Source: an uncultured Erysipelotrichaceae bacterium
GTDB lineage: Bacteria > Bacillota_I > Bacilli_A > Erysipelotrichales > Erysipelotrichaceae
DNA length: 41,198 bases
Reading direction: 5' to 3'
Assembly (NCBI GenBank): GCA_944326055.1
Contig: CALVCT010000007.1
Coordinates: 1 to 41,198 of the forward strand
Shown here: in pieces, positions 10,335 to 25,331 of the stretch
Layout: each line of letters begins with the position of its first letter
Position numbering within the stretch: the stretch's first letter is position 1
Notes under the pieces: generated by a model
What the model was told of the DNA's origin: nothing
What the model saw: only the letters and a program-made list of their open reading frames with translations
Database searches by the model: none
Made by a program: the position numbers and the translations under genes

Positions 10335-11098
10335 AAAAGACCTCCAAAAATGATGAGGACAGAAGCACTGCCCAGTGAAACAGCCAAAGCGATAAAGATC
10401 GCTTCGATCGCTCTTGTGATGCCAGAGATAAGATCACCATTGACACTATCTCTAACGGCATTGGTGATGATCAGACCTGGTACCAAAAGCATGATGGTCG
10501 CCATCGTCACTATATCGCCATCGATAGTAAAGATAGAAGTAGCGAGCAGACTAAAAAATGTCAAGATAGCACCTAAGATGATATTCTTGATGAAACTAGC
10601 AAGTTCGATCTTCGCTAATAACTTATCGAAGACCATCACGATCGCTCCAACAAAAAGTGCACATAACGCATCATAGATATCTCCACCAAAGATGATCGTA
10701 AAACTGAAGGAAGCCAAAGCAGCAGCTGCTATGAGGATGTATGAAGGATAGCCACTTTCCTTATCGATAGATTCAAGTCTTGCTTCAAGTTCATCGATAT
10801 CTAAAGGTGATGTACATATCTCTCGTGATAGAGAATTGATCTTATCGATCTTTGAGAGATCATACGCTGATCCATAGATACGTTTGATATTGTGAAAAAG
10901 CTCTTTTTGATCGTCAAAAGAGAAGGAGATGATCAAAAGTGATGGTGTCACATAAGCATCGATAACACTGGCACCATATGCTCGACATACTCTTTGCATC
11001 GTATCTTCGACCCTATGTACATCAGCTCCACTTTTAGTAAGGATCGTCCCAATATGTGTCAGAGCCTTAGCCAATCTATTGCCACTTTCTTTATCCAT
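10331..11098 (-). CDS. threonine/serine exporter, large subunit (ThrE/DUF1212-type)
   Basis: A 255-residue PF06738-type protein. The N-terminal cytoplasmic domain (about 1-115) carries the family pattern LTKSGADVHRVEDTMQRVCRAYG. It is followed by five hydrophobic segments, including MLLVPGLIITNAVRDSVNGDLISG, which is strongly conserved in the family. Together with the downstream small subunit it makes a split ThrE exporter. ATG 11098 is the only plausible start. There is no SD, and TATAAT ends 7 nt before it, so the mRNA is probably leaderless. Confidence 0.9.
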   Translation of the reverse strand: MDKESGNRLAKALTHIGTILTKSGADVHRVEDTMQRVCRAYGASVIDAYVTPSLLIISFSFDDQKELFHNIKRIYGSAYDLSKIDKINSLSREICTSPLDIDELEARLESIDKESGYPSYILIAAAALASFSFTIIFGGDIYDALCALFVGAIVMVFDKLLAKIELASFIKNIILGAILTFFSLLATSIFTIDGDIVTMATIMLLVPGLIITNAVRDSVNGDLISGITRAIEAIFIALAVSLGSASVLIIFGGLL

Positions 11099-11105
11099 GA
11101 CATCA

Positions 11106-11111
11106 ATTATA
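11106..11111 (-). promoter_or_regulatory. -10 element of the exporter operon (leaderless)
   Basis: TATAAT on the minus strand, 7 nt before ATG 11098. No good -35 is visible at 16-18 bp. Confidence 0.5.
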
Positions 11112-16405: not shown

Positions 16406-16411
16406 TATAAT
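16406..16411 (+). promoter_or_regulatory. -10 element of the 16428 gene
   Basis: TATAAT, 16 nt before ATG 16428. The -35 region (about 16382-16388) is a poor match and overlaps the preceding hairpin. Confidence 0.4.
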
Positions 16412-16427
16412 GAAAGGTGGAGAGTAT

Positions 16428-17810
16428 ATGAGAAAAGAATTATTAAATGCTGATGTCCAGACATTAAAAAGATTCGCTAACATCGTCGTAGCCAACCTTC
16501 TTGGAAATATCGATGTTTTTTATAATGTCACTAGGTCAGCAGGGCTTCCGCTTGCCTTTGAAGGGGCTTATCGAGAGATGGAGCTTGATGAAAGTTTCTT
16601 AGATAAAGATAAGGCTGAGCGCTTGCTAGGAGCTATTGATGAAACGAAGACGGAATCGAAGGAATTCTATATCGATGTGATAAAGATGATCTTTGAAGAC
16701 AAGACCCTCTTTGAAGCCTTCTGCATCGCTTATTTCGATAGCGATGAGCATTTAGCGGAATTCTTGGAAGTCTTGGGTTATGAAGACAAACTCATTAGAT
16801 TAGAGAAGAACGTTGTTTATCAGATGCGTCGAGACTATATCAGTTCACTGATCGCTATCATCAAAGCGACGATGAAGCTCTATGGTGTGATCTCGATAGA
16901 AGAGATCTATGAAGTCATCATGTATTATATGAAAGATTCCTTTGCACAAACTAGACACGAGGAATTCACACGTAAAAGAGGTAACTATAAGGTCACGGTC
17001 TTTGCTGATCCAATGTTCTTTAGTATCGAATTCTTATATATCTATCTACAGACTTGTGGCGCTGAGCTTCTCGTCACGCCAGATGGCCTAGTGATGGATG
17101 GATGTTTTGCGGATGAGTATCAAAGAGAAATCAATGATGTAATGAAAGCTGCAGATGAAGGAAAAAGTGCAGAGGAGATCTTTGATGTGATCGATGACGA
17201 TCAATACGCATATCGCAAATTCTATATCGAGAATATCGATAAACCACTATATTTGCCTGATGATATCTTTTATCATGCTGATGAAGAACAGGGCTATGAG
17301 AACGTAGACAGTGAAGAAGAGCTCTTTGATTATCTACTAGAGCTATCAATACGCTTCAAAGATAAAGTATCGAACTATGAAGATGATGATGCTAGGATGT
17401 ATGAGATCATTAGACTCATCGATATCGCTGTTCAAGGACTAAACGATCATAACGTCTGGCTTGAAGGAAGTGTAACTAAAGCACATGACATGTTGTGTCA
17501 TGAGCTCAATGATCTTGGTGTCAAACTAAAAAAGGATGAAAAGATCAAACTCATGGTCTTATTGAGTGATTATAGCGAAGATATCCGCTTGTGGAGGGAA
17601 CGTGGCTATACCGCAAGAGAGGTCAAAGAGGGCAAAGTCGTCGATCATCTGACTAAGATCGATGACTTATTCAGTGAAATGTTCGCTAATGATGGCTCTA
17701 TAAAGATGATCGCACCTAAAGATGAGCACTATACAGATATCGACCCGAAGACGGGCGAAAAGATCATCAAGATCAAACGTTCGATATATGAAGATGGAGG
17801 ACCGAAGTAA
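16428..17810 (+). CDS. uncharacterised cytosolic protein, 460 residues
   Basis: No family recognised. The start MRKELLNADVQTLKRF at ATG 16428 has an SD-like GGTGGAG at 16416-16422; an in-frame codon at 16410 is less likely. There is no signal peptide or membrane span. The sequence is acidic and mostly helical by appearance, rich in Glu/Asp/Tyr, with a short beta-like segment around residues 180-215 (GNYKVTVFADPMFF, then AELLVTPDGLVMDGCF). The C-terminal part is charged (residues 395-460). It stands alone between groESL and gap; codon use is normal for the window. Conservation of a long, intact frame with proper signals makes it a real gene of unknown role, probably lineage-restricted. Confidence 0.85.
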   Translation: MRKELLNADVQTLKRFANIVVANLLGNIDVFYNVTRSAGLPLAFEGAYREMELDESFLDKDKAERLLGAIDETKTESKEFYIDVIKMIFEDKTLFEAFCIAYFDSDEHLAEFLEVLGYEDKLIRLEKNVVYQMRRDYISSLIAIIKATMKLYGVISIEEIYEVIMYYMKDSFAQTRHEEFTRKRGNYKVTVFADPMFFSIEFLYIYLQTCGAELLVTPDGLVMDGCFADEYQREINDVMKAADEGKSAEEIFDVIDDDQYAYRKFYIENIDKPLYLPDDIFYHADEEQGYENVDSEEELFDYLLELSIRFKDKVSNYEDDDARMYEIIRLIDIAVQGLNDHNVWLEGSVTKAHDMLCHELNDLGVKLKKDEKIKLMVLLSDYSEDIRLWRERGYTAREVKEGKVVDHLTKIDDLFSEMFANDGSIKMIAPKDEHYTDIDPKTGEKIIKIKRSIYEDGGPK

Positions 17811-18908: not shown

Positions 18909-18930
18909 TCGTTACACGCAATAATGATCA

Positions 18931-18963
18931 AAAAAGTCATACGTAAGACGTATGGCTTTTTTT
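18931..18963 (+). terminator. gap terminator
   Basis: AAGTCATACG-TAAGA-CGTATGGCTT (one T-G pair) inside A and T runs. The T-run borders the promoter region of the next gene. Confidence 0.88.
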
Positions 18964-18979
18964 ATGCTAATAAAATCTT

Positions 18980-18985
18980 TATAAT
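18980..18985 (+). promoter_or_regulatory. -10 element of the XRE/RCC1-cysS operon (leaderless)
   Basis: TATAAT ends 6 nt before ATG 18992, so transcription should start at or next to the A of the ATG. The -35 position falls in the T-run of the gap terminator and matches poorly. Confidence 0.5.
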
Positions 18986-18991
18986 ATAGGT

Positions 18992-20791
18992 ATGTTACGT
19001 TTGCCTGAAAAGTTAGCAGCTCTACGTAAGCACTACTCATATTCACAAAGCTATATTGCTGATCTTTTGGACGTCGATGTGCTTGTCTATATGAATTATG
19101 AGAATGGTAGCGATGTGCCAAGTTTTGACAGTCTTAAGATATTGGCGAAGTTCTATAAGATACCAGTTGAGACCTTGTTTATCGAAGATGAAAAGCTAGA
19201 TCTGACTGATGATGCTTACGATATCGATAAAGAGAATTACACTTATCTAAAAAGACAGGCTAAAAAAGAGAAGTATCTACACTTTTTGAAAAGGCACCAT
19301 AAGACCATCATCTTAACAATGGTTATCATACTTCTTCTTAGCGTTGCCTTGATCTTATTGCCCAAAGGGAGCGATGGTCTAACATTGGTACATAGTTCAC
19401 ATCCTAATGATCTCTTGGATGCTTCAGATCGATCCGTCGTCTATATCGATAGTACGGGTACTGCTCATGGCCGAGGCGATAATACTAATTCACAATTAGA
19501 TCTAGACTTTAGCGATGTGATCGAGATCAAAGAAGGTAATAATTTCACTGTTGCTTTAAAAAGTGATGGAACGATAGTCAGCGCTGGACTCATTACACGT
19601 ATCGCTGATGAGTTAGCTCTACTCACTGATATCGTCAAAGTCGAAGCTGGCAATGATCATATCGTGACTTTAGATACAAAAGGCGATGTCACATGTCACA
19701 GCACTTATGGCGCAGAAGCTTGTGCGATCGCTGGTAGTCACCATGTGATCGATATCTTTGCGGATGATGATGTCGTCATCGCCGTATATGAAGATGGTTC
19801 AGTTGAAAGTTTCGGCGATTTCTTAGGACAAGATTGTCTTGCGGATATCGGTAGGATCACTGATATGGCGATCTCTGATACTATCAGTGCTTTTATCGTC
19901 GATGAAAAGCTCGTATATTATTCAGACGGCCAAGATTTTGATGAATTAAGGGAACTTACTGGTCTAAGACAAGTCGCAGTCGGTGATGACTTCATCGCCG
20001 TCTTAGATGTCGAGGGCAAAGTCCATATCGCGATCGCTGAAAACTTCATCTTAGAGGAGGAGGTCGCTTCATGGAGCGATGTGAAAGCTATCGCATCAGG
20101 CAAAGACTATCTAGTTGCCCTGATCGGTGATGAGATCGTTGGCGTTGGTAATAATGACTATGATCAATTTGATGTCGAAAGCTCACAGAAGATCACTTTA
20201 GCTAGTGTCAGCAATGTCCGTATCAGTTACACGGAGACAGACCTTGTAATAGAATTCGACCCTGTAAGTAACGCAAGTGCTTATAATCTGCGTATCGATG
20301 TCGGAACTGGTATCGCAATGACGACGACTAGTACTTCATTTTCGATCCCACTTGGACGGTTTACAGATGGTAGCGACTATACGATAGAGATCATTGCCAA
20401 GGGCGATCAAATGTATGATGATAGTGTACCGACGATCGTAAATCTGCGCTTTCGTGATCAAAACTCTTTGCCAGAAGATACCGAGAATCCAGAAGACCAA
20501 GAGCTCATCACGCTTACACAGATGACTTCGATGAGTGAAGAAGAGTTCCTCAACTATCTCGATAGTCTTGAAGTCGATATGACAAAAGTCGGTCGTTATA
20601 CAACGGATATCGTTTGTGCAGGAGATGAGATCACGATCACATCGATCTCGGGCATCAGTGATTTTGAGACACTGACACGTGAAGAACTCATGAGTCGTGA
20701 TATAGTATACTATGTTTGTAGGGTGACAGAAGATGACGGAAACGAAGATATGGCAGATCAAGGGACGACCGAACAGCCTGAAGCTTTCTGA
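18992..20791 (+). CDS. membrane-spanning XRE-type HTH protein with RCC1-like extracytoplasmic domain
   Basis: A 599-residue protein with an unusual domain order. Residues 1-66 are an XRE/Cro helix-turn-helix (LAALRKHYSYSQSYIADLL, then NYENGSDVPSFDSLKILAKFY). A charged linker leads to one membrane helix at about 104-124. Residues 137-405 form some six or seven RCC1-like repeats (VIEIKEGNNFTVALKSDG, then IVKVEAGNDHIVTL), expected to fold as a beta-propeller outside the cell. Residues 410-485 look like a fibronectin type III module, and the end (about 505-580) may be PASTA-like. Inference: a one-component transmembrane regulator sensing wall or surface ligands. No SD; leaderless start. It heads an operon with cysS. 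Confidence 0.85.
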   Translation: MLRLPEKLAALRKHYSYSQSYIADLLDVDVLVYMNYENGSDVPSFDSLKILAKFYKIPVETLFIEDEKLDLTDDAYDIDKENYTYLKRQAKKEKYLHFLKRHHKTIILTMVIILLLSVALILLPKGSDGLTLVHSSHPNDLLDASDRSVVYIDSTGTAHGRGDNTNSQLDLDFSDVIEIKEGNNFTVALKSDGTIVSAGLITRIADELALLTDIVKVEAGNDHIVTLDTKGDVTCHSTYGAEACAIAGSHHVIDIFADDDVVIAVYEDGSVESFGDFLGQDCLADIGRITDMAISDTISAFIVDEKLVYYSDGQDFDELRELTGLRQVAVGDDFIAVLDVEGKVHIAIAENFILEEEVASWSDVKAIASGKDYLVALIGDEIVGVGNNDYDQFDVESSQKITLASVSNVRISYTETDLVIEFDPVSNASAYNLRIDVGTGIAMTTTSTSFSIPLGRFTDGSDYTIEIIAKGDQMYDDSVPTIVNLRFRDQNSLPEDTENPEDQELITLTQMTSMSEEEFLNYLDSLEVDMTKVGRYTTDIVCAGDEITITSISGISDFETLTREELMSRDIVYYVCRVTEDDGNEDMADQGTTEQPEAF

Positions 20792-20939
20792 AGAAGAATT
20801 GATCGAAGCGCTCAAAAACGATCTTATAGAGGCTGATGATGTCCTTGTATCAAATGAATTAGACAGAGAAGTGATGGTCAAAGATACGATCTACACTTTT
20901 TATCTGAAAGGGATAAATGATGAAGAAGACAAAATTTGA
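20733..20939 (+). CDS. small uncharacterised protein, 68 residues
   Basis: The frame MTETKIWQIKGRPNSLKL starts inside the 3' end of the XRE/RCC1 gene (59-nt overlap) and ends inside the start of the next gene. It is acidic, without a signal peptide or membrane span. The pattern 'W-x-I-K-G-R ... SEEELIEALKNDLIEADDVLVSNE' loosely recalls GYF_2-like modules (W near the start, 'L..al..g.i..dd.v' helix) but this is weak. An AGGGTG sequence about 9 nt upstream may serve as SD. Tight overlap on both sides supports a real, translationally coupled gene. Confidence 0.65.
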   Translation: MTETKIWQIKGRPNSLKLSEEELIEALKNDLIEADDVLVSNELDREVMVKDTIYTFYLKGINDEEDKI

Positions 20940-21633
20940 GAAAATCTTGTATTATGTAACTTTAATAACGCTGATCTTATCGATCATCTTCGTTATTGCA
21001 CGTATCATCACAGCACCAAGCAGTAGCGAAGATCCAACGATCCGTGTCAAGAGTAGTTATACACTTATGTTGGTGCAGTGTATCTTGGGCGTTTTAGCTT
21101 TGCACCTTCCTGACATCATTGAAAGGCGTATCAAAAGAGACGTTCCATCACCAATGGTCATCATCTACATCATCTTCTTGTATTGTGCTATCTATCTTGG
21201 TGAAGTTAGGAACTTCTACTACACAGTAGCTAATTGGGATGATATCCTGCATACGATATCAGGCGCGATGCTTGGAAGCTTAGGCTTCAGCGTTATCACG
21301 CTCCTCAATAATACAGAGAAGATACCTTTAGATCTTTCACCGCTCTTTGTAGCTCTGTTTGCTTTTTGTTTCGCGGTGACGATGGGTGTCTTTTGGGAGT
21401 TCTATGAATATAGTTTCGATGGACTTTTAGGACTCAATATGCAAAAGTTCATGTTGGAAGATGGAACTGAGCTCGTCGGTAGGATGGCTCTTAATGATAC
21501 GATGACAGACCTTTTTGTTGATAGCGTCGGTGCATTCATTATCAGTGTCTTAGGTGGTCTATCACTCAAATATAAGACGAAACTTATCAATATGTTCCAC
21601 TTCAGGAGATTTAAGAAAGGGGAAGAGAAATGA
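20917..21633 (+). CDS. multi-span membrane protein, DUF2238/YjdF-like
   Basis: A 238-residue protein with about six hydrophobic helices (first at residues 12-32) and a basic C-terminal tail. The central VANWDDILHTISGAMLGSLGF and GVFWEFYEYSFD segments resemble the DUF2238/YjdF group, where Asp/His and Glu in membrane helices are conserved; no function is established. ATG 20917 (or the adjacent ATG 20920) follows AAAGGG by 4 nt. It overlaps the preceding small gene by 23 nt and cysS by 4 nt. Confidence 0.75.
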   Translation: MMKKTKFEKILYYVTLITLILSIIFVIARIITAPSSSEDPTIRVKSSYTLMLVQCILGVLALHLPDIIERRIKRDVPSPMVIIYIIFLYCAIYLGEVRNFYYTVANWDDILHTISGAMLGSLGFSVITLLNNTEKIPLDLSPLFVALFAFCFAVTMGVFWEFYEYSFDGLLGLNMQKFMLEDGTELVGRMALNDTMTDLFVDSVGAFIISVLGGLSLKYKTKLINMFHFRRFKKGEEK

Positions 21634-22958
21634 AGATATATAATACCAAGACTTTACGTCTAGAAGAATTTAGACCGATCAAAGAAGGAGAGGTCAAGAT
21701 GTATGTCTGTGGACCGACCGTCTATAGCGATATCCATATCGGTAATACTAGACCAATGATCGTTTTTGATACACTTAGAAGGCTATTTGAGGAACTTGGT
21801 TATGATGTGAAGTATGTTTCTAACTATACTGATGTCGATGACAAGATCATCAATGAAGCTAAGAAGCGCGATATCAGTGAATTAGAGCTTACTGATGAGA
21901 TGATCTTGCGTGTCGAAAAGATCAGAAAGCTTCTCAATACAGAAAAGTTATATAAGACACCACGTGTCACCGAGACGATGGAAGATATCATCTCTTTTAT
22001 CGATGAGCTAGTGATGGGTGGCTATGCTTATGAAGTTGACGGTGATGTTTTCTTTAGAACGAATAGTATCGATGATTATGGCTCTTTGTCTAATCAGATC
22101 TTAGATGATCTGAAGGCAGGAGCGCGTATCGAAGAGAACTCGAAAAAAGAGTCGCCATTAGATTTCGTACTTTGGAAGAAGACAGAAGAGGGTATCAAGT
22201 GGAAAAGCCGCTATTCTATCGGAAGACCTGGTTGGCATACTGAATGTGTCGTCATGATCCATAAAGAGCTCGGTGATGTGATCGATATCCATGGCGGTGG
22301 CAAAGACCTACGCTTCCCACACCACGAAAACGAACGCGCTCAAGCTAAAGCATTATATAAGACTGGACTTGCGAACTATTGGATGCACAACGGAATGATC
22401 GATCTTGATGGGGTCAAGATGTCTAAGTCTTTAGGCAACATCATGAAAGCGAAAGATGCTTTAGAGAATTATGACGCGATGGTCATTAGATGGCTATTAC
22501 TCAGTGCACATTATCGTCAAGATCTCAATGTCTCAGATGAGATCATCAAAAGTAGTGAGACAGAGCTCAATAAGGTCCTCAATTCTTTAAGACAAGCACA
22601 ATTGAAATTAGCACTGAACGATCAAGAGATCAAAGATCATGAGTCTGAATACTATGGACGCTTTATGGAAGCGATGGAAGATGATATGAATACACCAAAT
22701 GCCTATAGTGTGATCTTTGATATCGTCAAAGTCATCAACCAAACTGTTAGGTCTAAAGATGTCGATATGCAAAGATTATCTAAACTAACAGCTTCTTTGA
22801 TGAAGATGCTCGATGTCTTAGGTATAAGTTATCACCACCTGACGCTCACTGTTGAAGATCGTTCTATATATGAAAAGTGGCAAGAAGCTAAGAGTCAAAA
22901 AGATTTTGAAAGTGCCGACAAGTATCGTGAGATACTTCAAGAAAGAGGCATCCTTTGA
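21630..22958 (+). CDS. cysS: cysteinyl-tRNA synthetase
   Basis: A 442-residue class I synthetase that charges tRNA-Cys. The zinc-binding Cys in YVCGPTVY, the HIGH-type motif DIHIGNTRP, GWHTECVVM and HHENERAQ (zinc ligands) and KMSKSLGN are all present. It is slightly shorter than the 460-470 typical of the family, the loss being at the C-terminal anticodon-binding end. ATGA overlap with the preceding membrane gene indicates coupling. Same operon order cysS-mrnC-rlmB as in other Bacillota. Confidence 0.98.
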   Translation: MKIYNTKTLRLEEFRPIKEGEVKMYVCGPTVYSDIHIGNTRPMIVFDTLRRLFEELGYDVKYVSNYTDVDDKIINEAKKRDISELELTDEMILRVEKIRKLLNTEKLYKTPRVTETMEDIISFIDELVMGGYAYEVDGDVFFRTNSIDDYGSLSNQILDDLKAGARIEENSKKESPLDFVLWKKTEEGIKWKSRYSIGRPGWHTECVVMIHKELGDVIDIHGGGKDLRFPHHENERAQAKALYKTGLANYWMHNGMIDLDGVKMSKSLGNIMKAKDALENYDAMVIRWLLLSAHYRQDLNVSDEIIKSSETELNKVLNSLRQAQLKLALNDQEIKDHESEYYGRFMEAMEDDMNTPNAYSVIFDIVKVINQTVRSKDVDMQRLSKLTASLMKMLDVLGISYHHLTLTVEDRSIYEKWQEAKSQKDFESADKYREILQERGIL

Positions 22959-23320
22959 TCGATGCAGATCTACTAAACGGAACAGCCTTGAGCTTTATTG
23001 GTGATGCGATCTATAGCCTTAAGGTCCGCGAGTATCTTGTTTCTCAGGGCTATCATCGATCAAACGACCTACAAAGACTCACCATTACTTATGTAAGTGC
23101 TAAGGGGCAAACTCTTGCGTATGAAAAACTCAAAGATTCTGACTTCTTAAGTGACAAAGAAGAAGAGATCTTCAAAAGAGGACGTAATGCGATAGGTCAT
23201 ATTCCCAAAAATGGCAACTTACACGATTACAGTATCGCTAGTGGTCTTGAAGCGGTCTGTGGCTATCTCTATCTAAAAGATCTAGAGAGATTAGAAAGAT
23301 TATTTGAGGTGATATTATGA
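22955..23320 (+). CDS. mrnC: mini-ribonuclease III
   Basis: A 121-residue RNase III-like nuclease without the double-stranded-RNA-binding domain; the family trims 23S rRNA precursor. The conserved FIGDAIYSLKVREYL (catalytic Asp) and RGRNA motifs are present, as is the LEAVCGYLYL end. The start is TTG at 22955, overlapping the cysS stop as TTGA, with AGAGG 5-8 nt upstream. No ATG in frame could give a complete domain. Confidence 0.95.
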   Translation: MIDADLLNGTALSFIGDAIYSLKVREYLVSQGYHRSNDLQRLTITYVSAKGQTLAYEKLKDSDFLSDKEEEIFKRGRNAIGHIPKNGNLHDYSIASGLEAVCGYLYLKDLERLERLFEVIL

Positions 23321-24009
23321 GTTATATCTGGGGCAAGAACAGTGTCAATGAGGCTATCAAAGCTAAAAGAGTGAATGAGCTACTAATTTCTGACAAGACT
23401 TATATCTCGATAGCTAAAAAAGAACGTTTAAGATATACGCTAGTCACAAAAAAAGAACTCGACAAGATCGCCGGTGGCAATCATCAAGGCATCGTGGCGG
23501 AAGTCTTTGAGTATGAGACTTATGATCTAGAAGATATCATAAGGGATCACGATGGTCTTATCGTCATGTTGGATGGACTAGAAGACCCAAGGAATCTAGG
23601 TGCGATGATCAGGACAGCAGATTGTGCAGCTGTTGATGGCATCATCTATCGTAAAGATCGTAGTGTCCATGTCACTCCGACTGTCGCTAAGGTAGCTAGT
23701 GGAGCTTTGGAATATGTCAAGATCGTTGAAGTCACAAACTTAGTCGAGACAGTCAAAAGGCTCAAAGAGCGAGGTTATTGGATCGTCGGTACTGATGGTA
23801 GTGCTGAGATCGATTATACAAGTTTAGATTACGATATGAATACGGTCATCATCATCGGTTCAGAGGGCAAGGGTATATCTAGACTATTACTAAAAGAATG
23901 TGACTATGTCGTCAAGATGCCATTGCTTGGACATGTGAACTCCCTCAATGCTTCGGTAGCTTGCGGTATAATGCTTTATGAAGTATTGGAGAAAAGAAGC
24001 AATAGATGA
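23317..24009 (+). CDS. rlmB: 23S rRNA (guanosine-2'-O-)-methyltransferase, SpoU family
   Basis: A 230-residue TrmH/SpoU methyltransferase. The N-terminal substrate-binding domain (IWGKNSVNEAIKAKRVNELL) precedes the knotted SAM-binding domain with motifs DGLEDPRNLGAMIRTAD, IIGSEGKGISRL and LNASVACGIMLYE. RlmB methylates G2251 of 23S rRNA in Escherichia coli; the exact target here is inferred. ATGA overlap with mrnC. Confidence 0.93.
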   Translation: MSYIWGKNSVNEAIKAKRVNELLISDKTYISIAKKERLRYTLVTKKELDKIAGGNHQGIVAEVFEYETYDLEDIIRDHDGLIVMLDGLEDPRNLGAMIRTADCAAVDGIIYRKDRSVHVTPTVAKVASGALEYVKIVEVTNLVETVKRLKERGYWIVGTDGSAEIDYTSLDYDMNTVIIIGSEGKGISRLLLKECDYVVKMPLLGHVNSLNASVACGIMLYEVLEKRSNR

Positions 24010-24446
24010 ATCGCAAAGATGCGATAGTCCTACTTATCATCTCTATTTTGATGATCTCTATCGGTGTCATCTTAGGTCTGATCTATAATGAAGTGCCATA
24101 TGATCTCGATCACGCTTTTATAGGGTCAGCTGTCATTGCGCTTGGAGCATCTATCGGAGCGCTCATGAATGTCGATCTTAGGACTTATACTGATGAAGCG
24201 AAAGAAAAAGAGATGCGAGAACTCAATGCTAGGATGAAAGAAGTACCAATGGTCCGCATCGTCATGTGGATAATACAGATCGGATTTATAGTAGTGACGT
24301 TCATTATCAATCTAAAAGGCGTGACGATCGAATCTTCGATAGTGCTAGTTATTTTATGGATCATCATTACTATCGCAGCTATAATGAAGACAAGTGGTAT
24401 CAGAAAAGAGTTAAAGAAAGAGATCCAAAATAAAACTGAAGCTTGA
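24006..24446 (+). CDS. uncharacterised membrane protein, 146 residues
   Basis: Four hydrophobic helices (about 8-26, 36-54, 84-102 and 108-127) with a charged cytoplasmic loop in the middle (TDEAKEKEMRELNARMKE) and a Lys/Glu-rich tail. No family recognised. The ATG overlaps the rlmB stop (ATGA), so it is the last gene of the cysS operon; its stop lies in the terminator hairpin. Confidence 0.75.
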   Translation: MNRKDAIVLLIISILMISIGVILGLIYNEVPYDLDHAFIGSAVIALGASIGALMNVDLRTYTDEAKEKEMRELNARMKEVPMVRIVMWIIQIGFIVVTFIINLKGVTIESSIVLVILWIIITIAAIMKTSGIRKELKKEIQNKTEA

Positions 24447-24464: not shown

Positions 24465-25319
24465 TCAGTCTTTAAAGAATTTGATGACATCGGTAGCAGC
24501 TTTAGCACCTTCATACACGGCTTTGGCTACTTGAAGCATGCCCTTAGTGTCATCACCAGCTGCATAGATACCAGGGATGTTCGTGCGCATGTCTTCATCA
24601 GTGATGATCTTATTAGACTCATCAAGCAAGATGCCTATCTTGCGTGCAAGATCAGCGCTGCCAGCACTGCCTAATGCTACAAAGATACCATCGATATCTA
24701 AGCTTGTATCGTCTTCAAACAGCACTTTTTCAAGCTTTTCTTCTCCAGTTAAGTCCTTGATCTTTTTATCGATGATCTGATACTCTTGGAGCGCTTCATC
24801 TTCGATAGGCTTGCCATTTGTGAGGATATAGATATCTTTGCTTAAGGCTTTGAGATATTCAGCTTCATGTAAGGCGTAGGTGCCATTGCCCAAGACAGCG
24901 AGCTTTTTTTGACGATAGAAGAAACCATCACAGACCGCACAATAAGAGACTCCTTTGCCTTCGTATTCTTTAATCTTTTTTATCGGTGGTACATTTCGAT
25001 ATGCTCCAAGCGCTAGGATGAGCGCATCTGCTTCATATGTTGCCTTTTTTCCTATGACCTTGAAGCGTTCTTCATAGCTCAGACCTAAGACTTCATCTTC
25101 GATGAGAGGTATCTCCAGTCTTTTAGCTTGTTTGAGTCCTGTTTCGTATAAGTCTTTACCACTGATCGATTCGATACCATAGTAGTTTTCGATCTCATGA
25201 GCCATATTCAAAGAAGATCTTTCCATGTATATGACTTTGACATCGATATTTGCACGTTTGGCGTATAATGCCGCACTGATCCCAGCTGGACCAGCGCCAA
25301 TGATCACTAATTCTTTCAT
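24465..25319 (-). CDS. trxB: thioredoxin reductase-like flavoprotein
   Basis: A 284-residue FAD/NAD(P)H-dependent disulfide reductase that would reduce thioredoxin. The FAD motif VIIGAGPAGISAA is at the N terminus, the redox CxxC is in YCAVCDGFF, LGNGTYA marks the second nucleotide-binding fold, and GIYAAGDD the C-terminal FAD site. It is about 25 residues shorter than typical TrxB. The NADPH-binding stretch lacks the usual GGGxSA motif (GNGTYA instead), so the electron donor or partner may differ. Start ATG 25319 (MKELVIIG); an in-frame extension to 25346 runs through the promoter. No SD; TATAAT ends 6 nt upstream, suggesting a leaderless message. Confidence 0.9.
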   Translation of the reverse strand: MKELVIIGAGPAGISAALYAKRANIDVKVIYMERSSLNMAHEIENYYGIESISGKDLYETGLKQAKRLEIPLIEDEVLGLSYEERFKVIGKKATYEADALILALGAYRNVPPIKKIKEYEGKGVSYCAVCDGFFYRQKKLAVLGNGTYALHEAEYLKALSKDIYILTNGKPIEDEALQEYQIIDKKIKDLTGEEKLEKVLFEDDTSLDIDGIFVALGSAGSADLARKIGILLDESNKIITDEDMRTNIPGIYAAGDDTKGMLQVAKAVYEGAKAATDVIKFFKD

Positions 25320-25325
25320 GAGGTC

Positions 25326-25331
25326 ATTATA
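25326..25331 (-). promoter_or_regulatory. -10 element of trxB (leaderless)
   Basis: TATAAT on the minus strand, 6 nt before ATG 25319. No clear -35. Confidence 0.5.

Follow-up and report, generated by a model that had tools for sequence, protein, structure and literature searches.

The window analysed here is a stretch of 41,198 nt from an uncultured Erysipelotrichaceae bacterium (contig CALVCT010000007.1 of assembly GCA_944326055.1), and the gene under study encodes a protein, referred to below as protein X, that combines an XRE-type helix-turn-helix (HTH) domain, a membrane helix (TM), a propeller and an FN3 domain in one chain. The features of the locus are as follows:

18927..18965, no strand assigned: terminator-like hairpin in the gapA–protein X gap, 18-nt arms, 89% complementary, followed by a T run (inverted repeat)
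18980..18985, + strand: TATAAT resembling a −10 box, 6 nt upstream of the ATG; Shine-Dalgarno absent (sequence)
18992..20791, + strand: protein X, HTH-TM-propeller-FN3 (599-aa open reading frame, ATG start)
19001..19189, + strand: XRE-fold HTH, residues 4–66, with an atypical recognition helix at residues 29–36 (Pfam, column comparison)
19301..19363, + strand: single membrane helix, residues 104–124, basic residues on its N-terminal side (hydrophobicity, structure prediction)
19400..20179, + strand: predicted RCC1/BLIP-II-type propeller, seven blades of three strands, residues 137–396 (AlphaFold2, Foldseek, VIA)
20198..20461, + strand: FN3 domain, residues 403–490 (fold comparison)
20504..20725, + strand: possible PASTA-like C-terminal domain, residues 505–578, weak (weak PF03793 matches)
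20733..20939, + strand: small GYF_2-like gene, 68 aa (family profile; the window copy is below Pfam detection)
20917..21633, + strand: 238-aa polytopic membrane protein (no Pfam family over cut-off)
21630..22958, + strand: cysS, cysteinyl-tRNA synthetase (family profile matches)
22955..23320, + strand: mrnC-like RNase III domain protein (Pfam)
23317..24009, + strand: rlmB, 23S rRNA methyltransferase (family profile matches)
24006..24446, + strand: 146-aa membrane protein (open reading frame, Pfam search)

Architecture of protein X and its gene neighbourhood

The first-pass annotation had read an HTH, one membrane helix, RCC1-like repeats and an FN3 module in the 599-aa frame, and Pfam, hydrophobicity and fold comparison bear out all four. 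Residues 8–61 match HTH_3 (PF01381) at 30.1 bits against a cut-off of 23, the RCC1_2 match reaches 35.9 bits against a cut-off of 22, and all 11 aligned orthologues carry both HTH and RCC1 family matches, each of them matching HTH_3 as well as HTH_19. The PF00415 (RCC1) profile, run on the organism's own genome, gave no match there, and its controls were equally without a match, which leaves the run uninformative. Protein X has one hydrophobic segment, peaking at residues 105–123; the 24 residues that precede the helix contain 8 K/R and 2 D/E, and 2 K/R and 4 D/E follow it. Exactly one such segment lies between HTH and propeller in 50 of 50 relatives, and the N-terminal side of the helix is the more positive one in 42 of these. 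From charge and composition, protein X is predicted to be bitopic with its N-terminus inside. A place outside the cell for the ectodomain is consistent both with its acidity (27 K+R versus 95 D+E across 475 residues) and with its conserved cysteines: the pairs 235/244 (19694–19723) and 542/576 (20615–20719) are each kept together in 10 of the 11 aligned orthologues, and are possible disulphides on the outer side of the membrane.

AlphaFold2, run on three sequences, predicted seven blades of three strands at residues 142–386, then a seven-strand sandwich at 410–486 and a small alpha/beta tail; by our own cutting of the sequence the blades are 36–39 aa long. The model has a mean pLDDT of 62.5, with about 80–90 across most of the propeller; the propeller is predicted with good confidence, the HTH and the tail with low confidence. 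The top Foldseek matches are to BLIP-II (3qhy_B, E 1.2e-14), followed by RCC1 proteins, and the propeller superposes in VIA with Z scores of 20.0–20.4 on BLIP-II and 21–22 on RCC1, UVR8 and CR4, which sustains the earlier assignment of a propeller. The sandwich compares well with FN3 domains (VIA Z 11–12, rmsd about 2 over 80–90 residues), with a Pfam fn3 match in one of 11 family members (E 0.0082), and the number of FN3-like copies per ectodomain ranges from 1 to 3 among relatives. The PASTA-like end is suggestive only: PF03793 gave weak matches in 4 of 10 family members (the best at E 0.018 and none listed above cut-off; the first member tested scored 11.9 bits against a cut-off of 23.2), and fold searches with the C-terminal fragment listed FN3-type matches only.

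Upstream of the gene, the position of the −10-like box suggests that the protein X mRNA is probably leaderless. A simple rule applied to the 50 relatives classed 28 starts as leaderless-like, 20 as Shine-Dalgarno and 2 as neither. Leaderless starts may be general in the source organism, since the pattern TATAATN{5,8}ATG occurs 176 times in the whole genome versus 56 for the reversed pattern; at N{25,28} spacing the counts are 133 and 51. In the window, exact TATAAT stands 6–7 nt before the ATG at three starts, 18980–18994, 25317–25331 (−) and 11096–11111 (−). An alignment of the upstream regions of six relatives showed little conservation apart from the −10 box, and no conserved operator was seen in it. 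The long inverted repeat upstream is the terminator-like hairpin of gapA. The idea of an operator at 18960–18992 was rejected as unsupported: the −10 box and the hairpin's T run lie in this region.

Downstream, neighbouring genes from protein X through the 146-aa membrane protein share 4 to 59 nt with each other, suggesting that they form a single coupled operon. The place of protein X upstream of cysS recurs in relatives, cysS lying within 2 kb downstream in 13 of 20 regions sampled across genera (one of which stops 372 nt past the protein X gene), and gapA lies within 1 kb upstream in 8 of the 20. The small downstream genes had been read as membrane proteins; this holds for the 238-aa and 146-aa products, and the one at 20733–20939 is instead GYF_2-like. 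The 238-aa protein is found in genus g1 and patchily elsewhere, and is far less constant than the GYF_2-like gene. It carries WDxxLHxxSG and WEFYEY-like motifs, and copies 59–60% identical to it adjoin protein X in genera g46 and g21. On the other side of gapA, a 466-aa protein in the groEL–gapA interval (16410–17810) has no Pfam or NCBIfam match over cut-off.

A conserved family and its GYF_2-like partner gene

A search for other proteins of this architecture yielded 50 distinct HTH-TM-RCC1 proteins from 114 loci, which establishes a conserved family spread over 14 genera of one Erysipelotrichaceae-like family; near-identical species pairs are included in these counts, and genus labels were taken from the family genome searches. 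At E <= 1e-10, a profile built from 11 orthologues matched 159 of 272 family genomes, which fall into 28 of 59 genera, the weak end of these matches being HTH-only or RCC1-only. Genomes were counted as protein X-bearing where the best E was about 4e-26 or lower; this gave 135, with G277 and G288 set aside because they looked odd. Among the matches listed, one of the 135 (G102) is covered over the HTH only. Outside the Erysipelotrichaceae-like family, no match spanning both HTH and propeller was found in 392 genomes across the phylum, and a search of viral contigs gave 78 pattern stretches, none of which was confirmed as a relative. The sole named relatives belong to an uncultured Erysipelotrichaceae bacterium and an uncultured Firmicutes bacterium.

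In 47 of the 50 relatives a GYF_2-like gene starts between −50 and +23 nt from the protein X stop, encoding about 58–101 aa where measured; L079 and two species of genus g21 do not follow this pattern. Seven of the relatives' copies were compared with Pfam GYF_2: five scored over 25.8 bits, one scored 21.8 and one had no match. The window copy has no Pfam match, and PF14237 (GYF_2) likewise found nothing in the organism's own genome, where the controls also went without a match; this copy is too diverged for the Pfam profile and matches the family profile at E 4.9e-26, having itself been part of that profile. From this arrangement we infer that the GYF_2-like protein is a co-translated cytosolic partner of protein X. 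A literature search on GYF domains returned nothing relevant to bacterial HTH partners.

Two proteins form a second, rarer type of the same layout, L079:7666-8853 (genome G277) and L115:3-1496 (−) (G288), with a canonical SRQTISKWE helix and very regular RCC1 repeats. Both host genomes carry MreB, and L079 has no downstream GYF_2-like gene. The second type shows that this layout is compatible with a DNA reader of ordinary appearance. Elsewhere in the class there are XRE-TM proteins with other large ectodomains (L101, L110, L111), which indicates a widely used chassis, of which the propeller form is one variant.

The recognition helix and the MreB context

Apart from L079, which is counted among the 50 and omitted wherever n=49, the family shares an unusual recognition helix. 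It reads roughly [DS]-V-[LIM]-[ED]-Y-M-x-[YW]-E-N-G in 49 of 50 members, where 39 comparison XRE proteins drawn from the sampled loci read S-R-Q-[ATS]-[IV]-S-K-W-E, so the usual S-R-Q-x-x-S-K recognition residues are gone in 49 of the 50. The comparison set has R30 in 30 of 39, Q31 in 26 and K35 in 26, at columns that presumably read bases, as they do in phage repressor structures; in the protein X family V/T/L prevail at column 30 and L/I/M at column 31, and 43 of 50 members have E/D at column 32. The family thus lacks the residues typical of a base-reading helix. Polar residues in columns 29–36 average 1.31 in the family (n=49) versus 4.87 in the other XREs (n=39) and 3.26 in a RodZ-like control (n=19, from MreB-bearing relatives), which by this measure places protein X further from a DNA reader than RodZ; all compared sequences are mutually related, and p-values on them are thus not independent evidence. 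Other positions point the opposite way. The glutamine of the 'SQ' motif in helix 2, Q19, presumably a DNA-backbone contact as in phage repressors, is present in all 49 family proteins and lost in all 19 RodZ proteins, R12, E37 and N38 are conserved in 49 of 49, and the HTH as a whole shows no extra acidity (mean net charge +0.46 versus −0.95 in other XREs).

No MreB-grade match was found in the organism's own genome, which is 98.5% complete: the best reaches 69 bits in a 609-aa frame, presumably Hsp70, and most relatives' MreB proteins score about 460–485 bits. The genome has two HTH_25 matches, one a 70-aa HTH protein and the other below cut-off in a 407-aa frame, which do not look like RodZ; 19 of 20 MreB-bearing relatives have one HTH_25 protein of about 300 aa. 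The identification of protein X itself as RodZ was rejected, there being no HTH_25 among its matches up to E 1 and no MreB-grade match in the genome. Among the protein X-bearing genomes, 126 of 135 have no MreB match and 9 are MreB-positive, and a further 86 genomes are MreB-positive and lack protein X (Fisher p 1e-25 at genome level, ignoring relatedness; 272 genomes were searched for protein X and 266 for MreB, and a few protein X genomes may fall outside the MreB sample). By genus, with hand-entered values, MreB is present in 4 of 13 protein X-bearing genera versus 33 of 46 others (p 0.010), or in 5 of 13 if g48 is counted for its single MreB-positive, protein X-negative genome (p 0.047). 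As four genera carry both, protein X does not exclude MreB, and we treat the anticorrelation, a trend confounded by relatedness, as a lead only.

Candidate functions and known systems of similar design

Protein X resembles several characterised systems in part. With RodZ it shares an N-terminal cytoplasmic XRE fold, a basic juxtamembrane stretch, one membrane helix and an extracytoplasmic domain, and the XRE domain of RodZ is reported to bind MreB and itself and not DNA (PMC6946637); protein X differs in matching HTH_3/HTH_19 rather than HTH_25, in keeping Q19, in its propeller-FN3 ectodomain, in its GYF_2 partner and in the lack of MreB in its own genome. SweD, a cofactor of FtsEX-CwlO in B. 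subtilis, is likewise a membrane protein with a cytosolic HTH that seemingly does not bind DNA; according to PMC6705773 the HTH matters for function, yet ChIP-seq gave no DNA sites. SweD lacks a large ectodomain and has another domain order. Like CadC and ToxR, protein X combines a cytoplasmic DNA-binding-type fold, one span and an external sensor, but it has an XRE fold, an atypical recognition helix and a BLIP-II-type ectodomain. BLIP-II (1jtd, 3qhy) shares the seven three-strand blades and the extracellular location (VIA Z 20), but is a free secreted inhibitor, whereas protein X appears to be membrane-anchored with HTH and FN3, and identity is only 21–24%; likeness of fold alone would not argue for beta-lactamase inhibition by protein X. 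The plant membrane receptor kinases ACR4/CR4 (7a0j, 7a0k) also carry an RCC1-type propeller as their ectodomain (VIA Z 21.5), but inside they have a eukaryotic kinase, an unrelated output. A literature search for HTH, RCC1 and transmembrane together, covering little of the subscription literature and hence weak evidence of absence, did not find the architecture. The modules are known, and bitopic XRE proteins and propeller receptors are known separately; the literature searched held no example of the two joined and accompanied by a GYF_2 partner.

The reading that we favour, with a confidence just short of even, is that protein X is a bitopic envelope receptor or scaffold, built like RodZ without being one, in which the XRE-fold domain acts chiefly through contacts with other proteins. 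Outside, the propeller, carried on an FN3 spacer that in the window's branch ends in a PASTA-like tip, would bind a cell-envelope ligand, most likely a protein or wall component, and ligand binding or the state of the wall would alter the clustering or orientation of protein X in the membrane. Inside, the XRE-fold domain would relay the signal mainly by protein–protein contacts through its hydrophobic and acidic recognition helix, acting together with the GYF_2-like protein; their pairing is conserved, and the two would share an mRNA and be in physical contact. Such a protein would work without MreB in the source genome. Domain order and fold, the altered recognition helix, the GYF_2 pairing in 47 of 50, the lack of an MreB-grade match and the RodZ and SweD precedents argue for this, while the retention of Q19 and N38, an HTH that is no more acidic than others and the canonical helix of the second type argue against it. 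The stronger version, in which protein X and its partner are an undescribed, MreB-independent envelope-signalling scaffold with the XRE fold turned from DNA to proteins and the propeller sensing wall enzymes or wall state, in lineages that have shed both MreB and RodZ, is in our view rather unlikely.

The first-pass annotation had instead proposed direct transfer of a signal from the surface to DNA, and of this the domain layout and the position ahead of cysS stand; direct transfer itself is put in doubt by the atypical helix and by the absence of a conserved operator in the six relatives. A transmembrane transcription regulator in the logic of CadC and ToxR, with a propeller that senses an extracellular ligand and a membrane-tethered HTH that recognises DNA with novel specificity, is still a serious candidate, if a less probable one, and the protein-output and membrane-regulator readings are close. 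Protein X has the layout of such regulators, a DNA-binding-type domain and a membrane helix in one chain; its HTH_3 match is over cut-off, R12, E37 and N38 are invariant, the Y33-M34-x-[YW]-E-N-G signature shows the strong conservation to be expected if its target, DNA or protein, is fixed, and the class also has XRE-TM proteins whose large ectodomains are of other kinds. DNA binding stays plausible in particular because the 'SQ' glutamine is kept throughout and a sister type with a canonical helix exists. Set against this are the loss of most R, Q and K at columns 30, 31 and 35, the acidic column 32 and a near-constant GYF_2 partner that has no obvious role in DNA reading. Membrane-bound regulators are reported to be widespread in PMC10269533, the main text of which does not contain the words Xre, HTH_3, RodZ or propeller. 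That protein X is mainly a surface binder (an adhesin, a wall anchor or a BLIP-II-like enzyme inhibitor) with a vestigial HTH or one kept as a structural dimerisation domain would suit BLIP-II as the closest solved propeller in Foldseek and the free duplication of ectodomain modules, but HTH and GYF_2 partner, both predicted to be cytosolic, are kept across genera, and we consider it improbable.

The two genes make up a conserved, previously unnamed putative receptor-adaptor pair in a group of gut-type bacteria, and protein X offers a clean test of whether an XRE fold can turn from DNA reader to membrane protein-contact module outside the RodZ family, with the canonical-helix second type as a natural control.

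Propellers of this type also occur in another setting in the same Erysipelotrichaceae-like family. In other genera, proteins resembling oligopeptide permeases (OppC_N plus BPD_transp_1) have their first membrane helix followed by an inserted RCC1-type propeller (L114:5783-7606, L097:1336-2949, L014 and L030), with OppC_N over cut-off in L114, below cut-off in L097, and L014 and L030 assigned by eye.
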